From Alphaproteobacteria bacterium (lineage in GTDB: Bacteria; Pseudomonadota; Alphaproteobacteria; Micavibrionales; Micavibrionaceae), in assembly GCA_017999645.1 (NCBI GenBank), contig JAGNLJ010000011.1:1-64000 (forward strand): DNA of 64,000 nt, given 5' to 3'. How positions within the stretch are numbered: the stretch's first letter is position 1; each line of letters starts with the position of its first letter. The notes beneath the pieces are model-generated. The model saw only the letters and a list, made by a program, of their open reading frames with translations, did not search any database and was not told the origin of the DNA. Shown here in pieces: positions 10,115 to 20,632 of the stretch. Made by a program: the position numbers and the translations under genes.

Positions 10115-10831
10115 TTAATCCTCGACCGCGTCGGTATATCCGTAACGCATCAGGTCCTGGCCGAAATTCTGCATCCAGTATTGACCTTCAAGGAAATCGT
10201 CTGAAATCGCGCGGCACAAATTCCAGAAGTGTCGTCCGTGGTTCATGTGACGCAGGTGAGCCACCTCATGAGCCACCACATAATCCAGCGCAACTTCGGG
10301 CGCAAAGATCAGTCTCCACGAAAAAGACAGGCCGCCATCATCGGCGCAACTGCCCCAGCGTGACTTTGTGTCGCGCACGTGAATCTCTTTAATTTTCTCG
10401 CCGATCTCGGCGGCCTTTTCCCCGGCCAGTTCGGTCAGGCGAAGTTTGGCCCATTTGGCGAGGGCGCGTTTAACTTTCTGCGTCGGATCGTCGAGATTCG
10501 TAACAACCAGAATCTCATTCTGTTTCAAGATGACATCAGTCGTCTTTAATGTTTTTCTTTTAATGACGCGGATGGTGCGGTGACGTCCGAAAATCGGAAT
10601 GCTTTCGCCGTGATTGAATGAAACCGGGCGAGGCAGTTCGCGCAGTTTTTCCTTCATCCAGCGTTCATGTTCTTCGATAAATGCGGTAGCGCTTCTGACG
10701 CTCATGCCGCGCGGGAGAACCAGGTGAAAAACACGTTCCTTGGCGTCCAGGCGAAGGGCCATACGGCGCGCGCGGGCGCTCTTCTTCACCTTGATGTAGG
10801 ATGGCAGTTTCGGTTCACGTGATCTGGTCAT
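10115..10831 (-). CDS. YgjP/DUF45-type M48-like metallopeptidase
   Basis: A 238-residue protein of the YgjP family (WLM/SprT-like). It has the TKSRWGSCADDGGLSFSWRL block before the zinc motif, then HEVAH at 188-192 and the downstream H-x-x-x-FW pattern (HGRHFW). The family is a predicted cytoplasmic zinc hydrolase whose substrate is not settled. The gene lies 35 bases downstream of phaZ on the same strand. Confidence 0.92.
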   Translation of the reverse strand: MTRSREPKLPSYIKVKKSARARRMALRLDAKERVFHLVLPRGMSVRSATAFIEEHERWMKEKLRELPRPVSFNHGESIPIFGRHRTIRVIKRKTLKTTDVILKQNEILVVTNLDDPTQKVKRALAKWAKLRLTELAGEKAAEIGEKIKEIHVRDTKSRWGSCADDGGLSFSWRLIFAPEVALDYVVAHEVAHLRHMNHGRHFWNLCRAISDDFLEGQYWMQNFGQDLMRYGYTDAVED

Positions 10832-10866
10832 TTGCAGTTCTGCCCTTGTTTACACAGTAGGTTAAA

Positions 10867-12249
10867 TTAGTCGGCCATCTCCTTGTAATTATGCTGCTGG
10901 TTCTCTTTCAACCAGCGCCGTATAGCTACAATTCCATGCTTATCCCGGTTATATCTCTCAGGTGCAAGGTCGGCAACCCTCTCCAGATCATTTTTTGGAA
11001 CAGGGTCCTTGTCCGGGTCCATAAGCCTAATGAAATGGCGGATTCTCGGCATAATTTCTTCACGCCACTTACGACCGTTGAAAATTCCATAATGACCGGT
11101 TTGCAACTGGAAATGGTGATATTGCTTGTGCTGCGGCAGTGAATAACATAACTCGTGCGCGGCGGTGGTTTGCCCCCGTGCTGAAATATCATCTAGCTCA
11201 CCCTCAATGGTAAGCAAGGCTGTGTGTTCGATATCCTGCGGGCGAACATCGACCAGCTGGTTGTTGAGCGGATCGCGCCATTTCATCAGGCCGCGCGGGA
11301 GGAGGTGACGCTGGAACACTGTCTCAATCGTCTGCAGATAAAATTCCGCCGGAATATCCATGACCGAAAGATATTCGTCATAGAATTTTCTATGCGCATC
11401 GGCCGAACTGCCATCACCGGTAATCAGATGCTGGAAGAATTTCATGTGCGAGCCGACATGGCGGTCGAGATTCATCGACATGAACCCGGTGAGTTGCAGG
11501 AAACCCGGGTAAACTTTTCTGAACGCGCCGGGATAATAAAACGGCACCTCCTGAATGACTGATTTTTCAAACCACTGCATCGGGCGGTTCTCGGCGAGAT
11601 CCGTGACTTCCGTTTTCGAAATCCGCGTATCGACCGGCCCACCCATCAAAGTCATAGACAGTGGCTGGTTTGGATCATTTTCGGATGCCATCAGCGCAAC
11701 TGTCGCCAGTGTTCCCGGCGCGGGCTGGCACACCGCGATCAAATGTGTCTCCGGCCCGAGCAGGCTGAGATATTCGCGCAGGTACGTAATATAACTGTCG
11801 AGATTGAAAACGCCTTCCTTCAGCGGAACCTGGCGCGCATCTTCCCAGTCCGTAATATAAACTTCGTGATGCGGGAGCAGGGCCTTCACCGTGCCGCGAA
11901 GCAGCGTCGCGTAATGTCCCGACATCGGCGCGACGATCAGAACTTTCGGATCGTTACGTTTAATATTGCGTTTGAAATGCAGCAGGTTACCCCACGGCTT
12001 GTCGACGATAATCTCTTCAACGACCTCGACAGTTTTACCGTCGATCTTCGTTTCATGCAGTCTAAAATCGGGCCGTCCGAAACGGCGGGTTGAACGTTCC
12101 AGCAATTCCGCACCTGCGGCCATGGTCCGCCCCACTTGAGTATAGGAGAGGGGATTCCAGGGACTCTGGAATACATTGCGGGCCACCTCGGCCTGAAACC
12201 TGACCGGGGTCAGCAACGCATGTTGAAGCTCATAAAGTTGATAAAGCAC
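10867..12249 (-). CDS. phaZ: Intracellular polyhydroxyalkanoate depolymerase
   Basis: About 460 residues, alpha/beta hydrolase of the intracellular PHB depolymerase family (PhaZa-like). The nucleophile motif is CQPAPG (Cys near residue 174) in place of a serine lipase box, as in PhaZa1. ITDWEDARQVP and the late EGELDDISARGQT and GHYGIFNGRKW segments also fit. It degrades storage PHA granules. The reading frame runs open to 12408, but a GTG at 12249 with GGAGGG upstream gives the family start LYQLYELQHALL; 12336 is another option. No phaC or phaP is present here. Confidence 0.88.
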   Translation of the reverse strand: MLYQLYELQHALLTPVRFQAEVARNVFQSPWNPLSYTQVGRTMAAGAELLERSTRRFGRPDFRLHETKIDGKTVEVVEEIIVDKPWGNLLHFKRNIKRNDPKVLIVAPMSGHYATLLRGTVKALLPHHEVYITDWEDARQVPLKEGVFNLDSYITYLREYLSLLGPETHLIAVCQPAPGTLATVALMASENDPNQPLSMTLMGGPVDTRISKTEVTDLAENRPMQWFEKSVIQEVPFYYPGAFRKVYPGFLQLTGFMSMNLDRHVGSHMKFFQHLITGDGSSADAHRKFYDEYLSVMDIPAEFYLQTIETVFQRHLLPRGLMKWRDPLNNQLVDVRPQDIEHTALLTIEGELDDISARGQTTAAHELCYSLPQHKQYHHFQLQTGHYGIFNGRKWREEIMPRIRHFIRLMDPDKDPVPKNDLERVADLAPERYNRDKHGIVAIRRWLKENQQHNYKEMAD

Positions 12250-18303: not shown

Positions 18304-18311
18304 TGCCTGAT

Positions 18312-18426
18312 CTGTCAGCCCCGGCAGCGAGCCGACAGGCGAGCGTAAACGGGGACCTGGCATATAAATGCCGCGAAGCGGCCTGCCGTCAAAAAGACTG
18401 GGCCCCCGCTTTCGCGGGGGTGACAG
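18312..18426. repeat. Palindromic intergenic repeat patch
   Basis: Between the small gene after fur and the DUF1491 gene lie two short inverted repeats. One runs from GTCAGCCCCGG (18314) to CGGGGAC (ending 18356). The other is CCCCCGC-TTTC-GCGGGGG at 18403-18420, followed by TGACAG. The second resembles the CCCGC...GCGGG TGACA class of dispersed palindromes common in bacterial genomes. It could act as a terminator for the fur transcript. Confidence 0.5.
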
Positions 18427-18435
18427 AGGTGATGT

Positions 18436-18774
18436 ATGGATGACACGCGCCTGCCGACCGCGCTCTGGGTCGAGGCGCATTTGCGGCGCCTGACGCAGGA
18501 AGGAATTCCGTATTACATCGCCAACACCGGCGCGTACGCCGCCGGAACCGTGCTTGTGAAAATCAACGGGCTGGAGAAGGGGTGCCGCCTGTTAATCCAG
18601 CAGCGCAACCTCGACGGCATTCTTGGCTGGGCCGACGCGACAAAAGACCAAATCCTCGAGGAAAAAAAAGCCGACGAATACATCAGTCGCGCTGTCTCCC
18701 GTGATCCCGACATCTGGGTCATCGAAACCGAAGACCGCCGCATGCAAAATCCGTTTGAACATCCTCAGGTTTGA
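18436..18774 (+). CDS. DUF1491-family protein
   Basis: A 112-residue protein matching the alphaproteobacterial DUF1491 family: TRLPTALWVEAHLRRL at the start, the TGAYAAGTVLVKINGL core, and DPDIWVIETEDR at the C-terminus. The function is unknown. Its last 66 bases, including the stop codon, have a second copy 481 bases downstream (listed as a fragment), so the gene's 3' end has been duplicated around the next ORF. Confidence 0.88.
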   Translation: MDDTRLPTALWVEAHLRRLTQEGIPYYIANTGAYAAGTVLVKINGLEKGCRLLIQQRNLDGILGWADATKDQILEEKKADEYISRAVSRDPDIWVIETEDRRMQNPFEHPQV

Positions 18775-18837
18775 CAGAGGCCGGATTTATTAGTATTAGG
18801 TAAAATAAATCATCGAAACCTGGAAGGAGTAGCTAAA

Positions 18838-19134
18838 ATGAATCAGGCAGGCATTAGATACAAATACGCAGAAGGAACCGCCACAGACAAAAGCGCAGAT
18901 TTTACAAGACATGCGAAAAGTCTTTTATGGGGCTACCAGGTTAAGCCATGGGATGGCGGCCCTATAACTGTAGATTTATATCAGATTGAGGAATTGCATG
19001 CGTGGGGCAAGCAACCAAACGCTGCGGCAGTCGATGTCGAAAATAGTAAAGATTTCGGACGGGCTCTTGTTGATATTAAAAAAGCTCAAAATCTCAAAGC
19101 CACCTCGTCGCCGCACAACCCGACACACGGCTAA
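18838..19134 (+). CDS. Hypothetical protein in AT-rich insert
   Basis: A 98-residue protein with a strong ribosome-binding site (GGAAGGAG) before the ATG. The composition is clearly more AT-rich than the flanking fur and prfC genes. It contains KSLLWGYQVKPWDGGPITVDLYQ and a lysine-rich end. No signal peptide or membrane helix is seen. It is the only gene in the segment bracketed by the two copies of the DUF1491 gene end, so it probably arrived by transfer. Function unknown. Confidence 0.7.
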   Translation: MNQAGIRYKYAEGTATDKSADFTRHAKSLLWGYQVKPWDGGPITVDLYQIEELHAWGKQPNAAAVDVENSKDFGRALVDIKKAQNLKATSSPHNPTHG

Positions 19135-19193
19135 TTTTGAAAGAAACCTTCAACCCCGACGCGATATGATGACTTTAATGAAAATAGAAACCT

Positions 19194-19259
19194 CTGGGTC
19201 ATCGAAACCGAATACCGCCGCATGCAAAATCCGTTCGAGGGAACCAATATTTGACAGAA
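19194..19259 (+). pseudogene. Duplicate 3' end of the DUF1491 gene
   Basis: These 66 bases align without gaps to 18713-18778, the end of the DUF1491 gene. The first 46 positions differ at only two bases, the middle is diverged, and the last eight (TTGACAGA, containing the TGA stop) are identical. The copy stays open in the original frame and would encode WVIETEYRRMQNPFEGTNI and stop. It has no start and is a remnant, either of the original gene end or of a replacement tail. Confidence 0.8.
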
Positions 19260-19403
19260 ACGTTGTATTTTTGTCATAACATACACAATAGTAAAATTGT
19301 GAATAAAATCCGCGCCCGGCTCAGCCAGAAAAAATACGCGGCTATAATAACCAGATAAAAAGAGACGCCTATGCGTCCGAAAATAACAGGACAGGGAATA
19401 AAA

Positions 19404-19748
19404 ATGCAGAAACAACGTGAACCTCTATCGCCGCATTTTTTTGTAAATGTAATACCATCGCAAACGCCTGAACCTGATTTTTTAATCGAATCTGTACCAC
19501 TGAAAAAATATACATTTCTTCGGGATAAACCTTCACCGGATCCCGAAAAGGTATATCTCAGCGAAGTCACCGCACTTTCAGGTGAAACCCCGGAGGAGGT
19601 TCTTAAAAACGCAAATGAATGTCAGGCAATTTTATATGCCGCTTTCAAAAATCCCCATGACTTCTCGTCCTCGCACAACAATTACGAAATGGGCCAGGCA
19701 CTTACCTTTTTAAGGCGACGGGCATATAACCCCATGCCAATTGTTTAA
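19404..19748 (+). CDS. Hypothetical protein in AT-rich patch
   Basis: About 114 residues from the ATG at 19404 (AGGGAA upstream); the frame also has an ATG at 19371. It contains PHFFVNVIPSQTPEPDFLIESVPLKKYTFL and a helical C-terminal half (GETPEEVLKNANECQAILYAAF). No family is recognised. Low GC and the position within the run of small unknown genes suggest horizontal origin. Confidence 0.6.
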   Translation: MQKQREPLSPHFFVNVIPSQTPEPDFLIESVPLKKYTFLRDKPSPDPEKVYLSEVTALSGETPEEVLKNANECQAILYAAFKNPHDFSSSHNNYEMGQALTFLRRRAYNPMPIV

Positions 19749-19839: not shown

Positions 19840-20175
19840 ATGCCGGAAATTTTTGACCCTAGGTCTTGGTACGAGTACCTAAGGCTCATTGAGAACGACG
19901 CAAAAAAAGGCCCTGACCGTGTTGAGGCCCGCTTTAATAAAGCTGCGCGGACTTATTGGGGATTTGGTATATTGCGACCCGCAATAATAGGTGAAGAGGA
20001 ATGTTTAGCTTTGGCTAAGTGCTATAGAAATGTAGTTCCTCAAACGCTGGCGCATAAGGATATGACCGAGCTTTTTGAAAATACTGCAAGTCGCATTCGT
20101 GCTGAGAAAATTAAATTGTGCCTTATATCGGCGCCTGCGGAAAACGCGGCCCCAATAGAAAGCGTCCCAGGTTAG
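19840..20175 (+). CDS. Hypothetical protein in AT-rich patch
   Basis: About 111 residues starting at MPEIFDPRSWYEYL, where CGGAG precedes the ATG; an upstream in-frame ATG at 19810 lacks such a site. Mostly helical and charged, soluble, with three cysteines. No family is recognised. It is the third gene of the AT-rich patch between the DUF1491 gene and prfC. Confidence 0.6.
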   Translation: MPEIFDPRSWYEYLRLIENDAKKGPDRVEARFNKAARTYWGFGILRPAIIGEEECLALAKCYRNVVPQTLAHKDMTELFENTASRIRAEKIKLCLISAPAENAAPIESVPG

Positions 20176-20224
20176 TAAAGCTGATTATTCTTGCCATCAA
20201 ACTATATTAGGTTTATATTCCTAT

Positions 20225-20632
20225 ATGGTTTGGAGCGAAGAACGCAGGCAAAAACAACGCGAAATCATCAATCGCAATAAACCGTGGGAAAAATCCACGG
20301 GTCCCCGGACGCGCAAGGGCAAGGCCCGCGCCAGTCTCAATGCAATAAAAAACGGCCTTCACTCCCGCTCGGGTCGCGAAATCAGGAAACTCCTGTTCCA
20401 CAACCGCGAATTTCTCAAGGCCTACCGCGAGCACGCTGAGTGGGAAGTGCTCATGCGATTACTTCGTTTGGAACAGGCCCCGGAACGAACTGTTGAAAAA
20501 TCCTTTGAAATCAGTCATACCCCGGGGGCACCCCCGCCAAACGGGGCAAACGAACTGAATGTAAATGACGACAGAAACCGAAATTCAAAAACGCCGCACC
20601 TTCGCGATCATCGCCCACCCCGATGCCGGTAA
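20225..20632 (+). CDS. Short basic protein with PWEKSTGPRTRKGKA motif
   Basis: A 135-residue, very basic ORF. The N-terminal part RNKPWEKSTGPRTRKGKARASLNAIKNG resembles a short motif I associate with small hypothetical proteins in proteobacteria and their phages. The last 68 bases overlap prfC in another frame, and the C-terminal quarter (GAPPPNGANEL onward) looks non-native, so the original end may have been lost. The motif part is probably real. Function unknown, possibly nucleic-acid binding. Confidence 0.5.
   Translation: MVWSEERRQKQREIINRNKPWEKSTGPRTRKGKARASLNAIKNGLHSRSGREIRKLLFHNREFLKAYREHAEWEVLMRLLRLEQAPERTVEKSFEISHTPGAPPPNGANELNVNDDRNRNSKTPHLRDHRPPRCR

Follow-up and report, generated by a model that had tools for sequence, protein, structure and literature searches.

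A duplicated DUF1491 gene end around an AT-rich orphan gene in a Micavibrio-like alphaproteobacterium, probably left by one recombination event

The 3' end of a DUF1491 gene was found twice in the genome of an alphaproteobacterium from a Micavibrio-like genus, and the two copies, hereafter called tails, bracket an AT-rich gene that has no relatives in the databases searched. A single recombination event where the DUF1491 gene ends probably left this structure; the incoming DNA would have carried a DUF1491 tail of its own. It would be a clean, small example of a conserved gene end acting as the anchor for the gain of an orphan gene without a mobile-element enzyme, and it shows the short spot between DUF1491 and prfC to change quickly in Micavibrio-like bacteria. 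Positions refer to the window, which is the whole stretch of 64,000 nucleotides that was analysed. The host genome comprises 2.06 Mb in 23 contigs and is 97.6% complete. Two congeners, G001 and G002, one of which is Micavibrio sp. UBA7657, were used for close comparison.

The direct repeat was identical at 46 of its 49 positions (94%, three mismatches; blast E about 1e-13), with a start-to-start spacing of 480 between the copies. Both edges of the duplicated block are sharp and lie inside the gene. Past the block the copies are nearly unrelated over 11 positions, after which TTTGACAGA at the stop codon is common to both, in register. The initial annotation had described a 66-base recurrence in a 481-base unit. 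The duplication is real, but its register was one base off (18713-18778 pairs with 19193-19258, not 19194-19259), and the unit length gives way to the measured 480; with the register corrected, the two differences reported within the first 46 positions are indeed found. Copy 2 keeps the DUF1491 frame to a TGA, as had been stated, and translates as LWVIETEYRRMQNPFEGTNI up to the stop at 19252-19254. This frame is open from 19141, but ATG, GTG and TTG are all missing before the tail begins, which makes copy 2 most probably a remnant. A search of the host genome returned only these two good tail matches, the next best being 23 bases long, which rules out a wide repeat family as the source of the second copy, an origin the initial annotation had raised against its own reading. 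PF07372 was matched in 93 of 104 family genomes, once per genome except for one gene split between contigs.

Each of the genus's four alleles (copies 1 and 2, G001 and G002) has its stop codon within TTTGAC[AG], a -35-like box. TTGACA overlaps the DUF1491 stop at 18771-18779 and 19251-19259, and likewise in G001; G002 has TTGACG. A strict promoter scan did not list the box and gave no excess over shuffles, and a role as promoter element for the next gene is only a suggestion.

Table 1 Features of the DUF1491-prfC spot in the window.
Feature	Position	Strand	Evidence
DUF1491 gene, intact, 112 aa, carries tail copy 1	18436..18774	+	Pfam PF07372, E 8e-29
Tail copy 1, 3' part of DUF1491 coding region	18710..18758	+	46/49 identity to 19190-19238
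New right flank, with HPQV-stop, TTTGACAGA and an AAGGAG-containing leader before ORF1	18759..18837	+	Congener flank not significantly matched
ORF1, 98-aa orphan gene, GC3 0.42	18838..19134	+	No relatives in databases searched
Tail copy 2, most likely the displaced DUF1491 3' end (LWVIETEYRRMQNPFEGTNI-stop), no start codon ahead	19190..19254	+	Repeat and reading of the frame
Ancestral-type right flank of DUF1491 (TTTGACAGA..ATTTTTGTCATAA)	19252..19285	+	Match to G002 and G001
ORF2, 125-aa orphan gene, GC3 0.36, alternative ATG at 19404	19371..19748	+	No relative found
ORF3, 111-aa gene, probably equivalent in position to the one small gene of the congeners	19840..20175	+	blastp to G002 gene
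Conserved downstream gene (GPRTRKGKARASLN), right-hand synteny anchor, then prfC at 20565	20225..20632	+	Synteny resumes at 20188 in both congeners

Nucleotide identity between the window and the two congeners was 81-96% from tgt to DUF1491 and again from 20188 to prfC; from DUF1491 to 20188 there was almost nothing in common at the nucleotide level. The order in both congeners is DUF1491 with a single tail, one small AT-rich gene, the gprt gene and prfC, with no second tail, and ORF1, the second tail and ORF2 are extra in the window. Relatives without the unit, which the initial annotation had named as informative, are single-tailed at this locus, with a flank that matches that of copy 2. Both carry a different small gene at the spot, so that neither offers an exact empty site. 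Stepwise duplication of the whole gene, the gradual course that had been set against integration, was not seen in relatives. The small genes of G001 and G002 are related to each other at 38% identity (blastp E 3e-16), compared with more than 90% for most neighbouring proteins of the congeners. The fold predicted for the small gene of the congeners had a pLDDT of 68 and matched nothing in PDB below E 0.2. Divergence is extremely fast in the small gene that stands between DUF1491 and gprt (loci L010 and L011, and 19840-20175 of the window). Divergence along DUF1491 itself was scanned for a mosaic pattern against G001 and G002 and gave no clear breakpoint. Upstream, at 18304-18435, a 130-base spacer with the palindromic ccccgctttcgcggggg separates DUF1491 from a 74-aa gene; the corresponding genes of G001 nearly touch.

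The flanks indicate which tail is original. The 13-mer ATTTTTGTCATAA that follows copy 2 recurs unchanged in G002 (P 0.001) and has a similar counterpart in G001 (P 0.01), and local matches of the copy 1 flank to the congeners' flank were not significant (P 0.08-0.47). Insofar as the congener DUF1491 flank matches the sequence after copy 2 and not that after copy 1, the original tail, now displaced, is most likely copy 2. The C-terminus is NPFEGTNI in copy 2 and NPFEHPQV in copy 1. Among 84 surveyed DUF1491 C-termini, [E/D]G follows NPF in 48, in agreement with NPFEG of copy 2, and NPFEH is rare; this line of evidence is only moderate because the congeners end in EVKI and EFVDV. Since both copies share CGCCGCATGCAAAAT bases that are absent from G001 and G002, they probably separated after the genus split, within this lineage.

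The insert is about 430 bp long and contains no transposase, integrase or terminal inverted repeats. As the initial annotation had noted, it holds an AT-rich gene: the GC3 of ORF1 is 0.42, against 0.71 in DUF1491. An ORF of 98 aa appears in about 1% of shuffles of the segment between the copies. No relative of ORF1 was found in Pfam, PHROGs, NCBIfam, plasmids, phages or IMG/VR, nothing fell below 0.01 among 103 other family genomes, and the host genome has no second copy; the single PADLOC match (E 0.039) is at chance level. A structure model of ORF1 was unusable (pLDDT 44). ORF3 resembles the small gene of G002 (blastp E 6e-4; z 6.4 over shuffles). ORFs 1-3 are orphans, with no family match in Pfam, NCBIfam or PHROGs, no IMG/VR relatives and PADLOC output at chance level only, and have GC3 values of 0.36-0.42 versus 0.71-0.73 in DUF1491, fur and prfC. 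No RNA families were found. The 11-base TCATCGAAACC is present at 18810, at chance level (E 1.1).

Tandem duplication within the lineage would account for TTTGACAGA standing in register after both tails and for the in-register similarity there (P 0.016): a unit of tail, flank and small gene would have been doubled, and its downstream part would then have diverged rapidly or been replaced while the tail stayed similar. The 38% identity of the spot's small genes between congeners fits such speed. ORF1 and ORF2, however, have no similarity beyond chance (86 of 300 shuffles reach their score), and no reason is known for keeping copy 2. A tail at 94% identity also adjoins flanks that are near random, a contrast that a single ancient, uniformly diverging duplication does not produce and that favours incoming DNA with its own DUF1491 tail. 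Tandem duplication is accordingly considered unlikely. The shared, in-register TTTGACAGA means that the copy 1 flank may itself descend from a DUF1491 flank, blurring the line between foreign and native DNA.

For recombination with incoming DNA, the donor, the order of events, the type of recombination and a promoter role of the flank for the small genes are given here as we infer them. The incoming molecule, from a close relative, would have had a DUF1491 tail almost identical to the resident one and, behind it, a flank of different sequence and ORF1. The two tails would have paired, and the new DNA would have entered there in one of two ways: a single crossover with a circular or re-circularised fragment, or homology-assisted illegitimate recombination in which the foreign end was joined immediately before the resident tail. 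The gene would have been restored with the incoming last codons (HPQV) and would have gained ORF1 as its neighbour; the resident tail would have moved 480 bp downstream, together with its own final codons, its promoter-like flank and the genes that follow. In keeping with this, the genome has a DNA-uptake gene of the ComEC type. Searches of 103 other family genomes and of phages, plasmids and IMG/VR returned no donor of ORF1 with the same tail anchor.

Against the recombination reading stand the 49 bp of homology, a short stretch for RecA, the lack of a donor among the sequences searched, and the lack of an exact empty site in the congeners. Textbook illegitimate recombination predicts a deletion; partial target duplications were nevertheless observed in E. 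coli in 56 of 60 integrants screened, measured 109-950 bp in the 14 that were sequenced, and were attributed to a single crossover involving a circular molecule that had been shortened (PMC3240628). The DUF1491 locus resembles such single crossovers and homology-facilitated illegitimate recombination (PMC3240628; PMC2884548) in that part of the target recurs beyond the incoming DNA. It differs in that its block is 49 bp long and the event a natural one read from sequence, whereas the measured duplications were obtained with a plasmid. The event is of an ordinary, known kind, DNA uptake and recombination with orphan cargo, not a new mobile element, and it does not point to a new mechanism.

The fragmentation of the genome raises the question of an assembly chimera, in which alleles of two strains were joined in a metagenome-derived contig. 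An assembly in 23 contigs may be metagenome-derived, and the two tails resemble two alleles. The left entry into copy 2 is not shared with the gene, however, leaving no long shared word at the junction for a mis-join, and we regard a chimera as very improbable.

The initial annotation had proposed integration at the 3' end of the gene with the gene restored, and had seen no integrase nearby. Much of this stands, namely the addition of DNA and the restoration of the gene; copy 2 also looks like a displaced original end, in its flank match and in an EGTNI end that fits the NPFEG pattern. The site-specific part fared less well. The tail would then be an att core, and the insert of about 430 bp a mini-element that a distant tyrosine recombinase moved in trans. 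Repeat-insert-repeat geometry at a gene 3' end with a restored reading frame would suit this, and the genome has 11 matches to the tyrosine recombinase profile PF00589. All 11 lie off the contig of the window, the cores differ at 3 of 49 positions, ORF1 has a single copy in the genome, and the tail is duplicated in none of 84 relatives, though many hold extra DNA at the spot. With no tyrosine recombinase on the contig, imperfect repeats and no recurrence, site-specific integration becomes the less likely course, and we rate it as improbable. In comparison with integrative elements that use tyrosine recombinase att sites at gene 3' ends, the restored end and the flanking direct repeats are alike, and the small insert, its imperfect repeats, the lack of an integrase nearby and the lack of recurrence in 84 relatives are not.

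Other systems offer parallels. In insertion with long target duplication, described for H. pylori restriction-modification genes (Nobusato 2000, in the account given in PMC1643837), a long direct target repeat (here 49 bp, 94%) likewise surrounds an inserted gene, one copy is absent in relatives and no transposase or integrase is present. Both congeners and a further 82 loci have a single tail; with another small gene at the spot, however, the congeners give no exact empty site, and the cargo is an orphan and not a restriction-modification system. Similar geometry has been proposed for rhs tip displacement (PMC2935791) and for T6SS immunity gene arrays (PMC5361080). Shared with these are a new end and compositionally different cargo behind a conserved gene, and a displaced gene fragment with the old end downstream. 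DUF1491, in contrast, has no known toxin role, only about 5 residues of the end are exchanged, and ORFs 1-3, without family matches, show no effector or immunity relation.

Recurrence was examined at other DUF1491 loci and elsewhere in the genus. No downstream tail copy was present at any of 84 other DUF1491 loci whose 3' end is complete, two matches of 11-12 bases being at chance level. The distance from DUF1491 to prfC ranged from overlap to about 2 kb at the surveyed loci, and where the gap was at least 150 bp the intervening DNA averaged 6 points lower GC than DUF1491, on which grounds DNA often enters the spot, but without the tail-copy signature. A bolder idea, which we regard as a long shot, is that the DUF1491 3' end serves the genus as a docking site for exchanged small hypervariable genes. 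Each incoming unit would bring its own tail, last codons and promoter (the -35 box over the stop), giving new genes immediate expression while older ones stay on downstream, like an integron without an integrase. The tail-insert-tail form, which the initial annotation had suggested might occur at other loci, was sought in samples from three congeneric genomes, the host included, amounting to about 854 kb, and no second clear case emerged; the combination of a coding tail, an AT-rich insert and a unique repeat was confined to DUF1491. Three further gene-end repeats around AT-rich inserts (L070 10691, L086 2734 and L103 8207) were judged by eye to be dispersed non-coding repeats, and the remaining gene-end matches had GC-rich inserts. 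At L070:10691-11114, on contig C21 of the host genome, a lone small gene (10710-11012) lies between two copies of the dispersed GTCATTGCGAGG repeat; it is GIY-YIG nuclease-like by eye and directly follows a dxs-like gene. At L103:8207-8762 in G001, a 132-aa ORF, DUF559-like by eye, is bordered by a repeat of the CCCTCACCC..CTCTCCC type.
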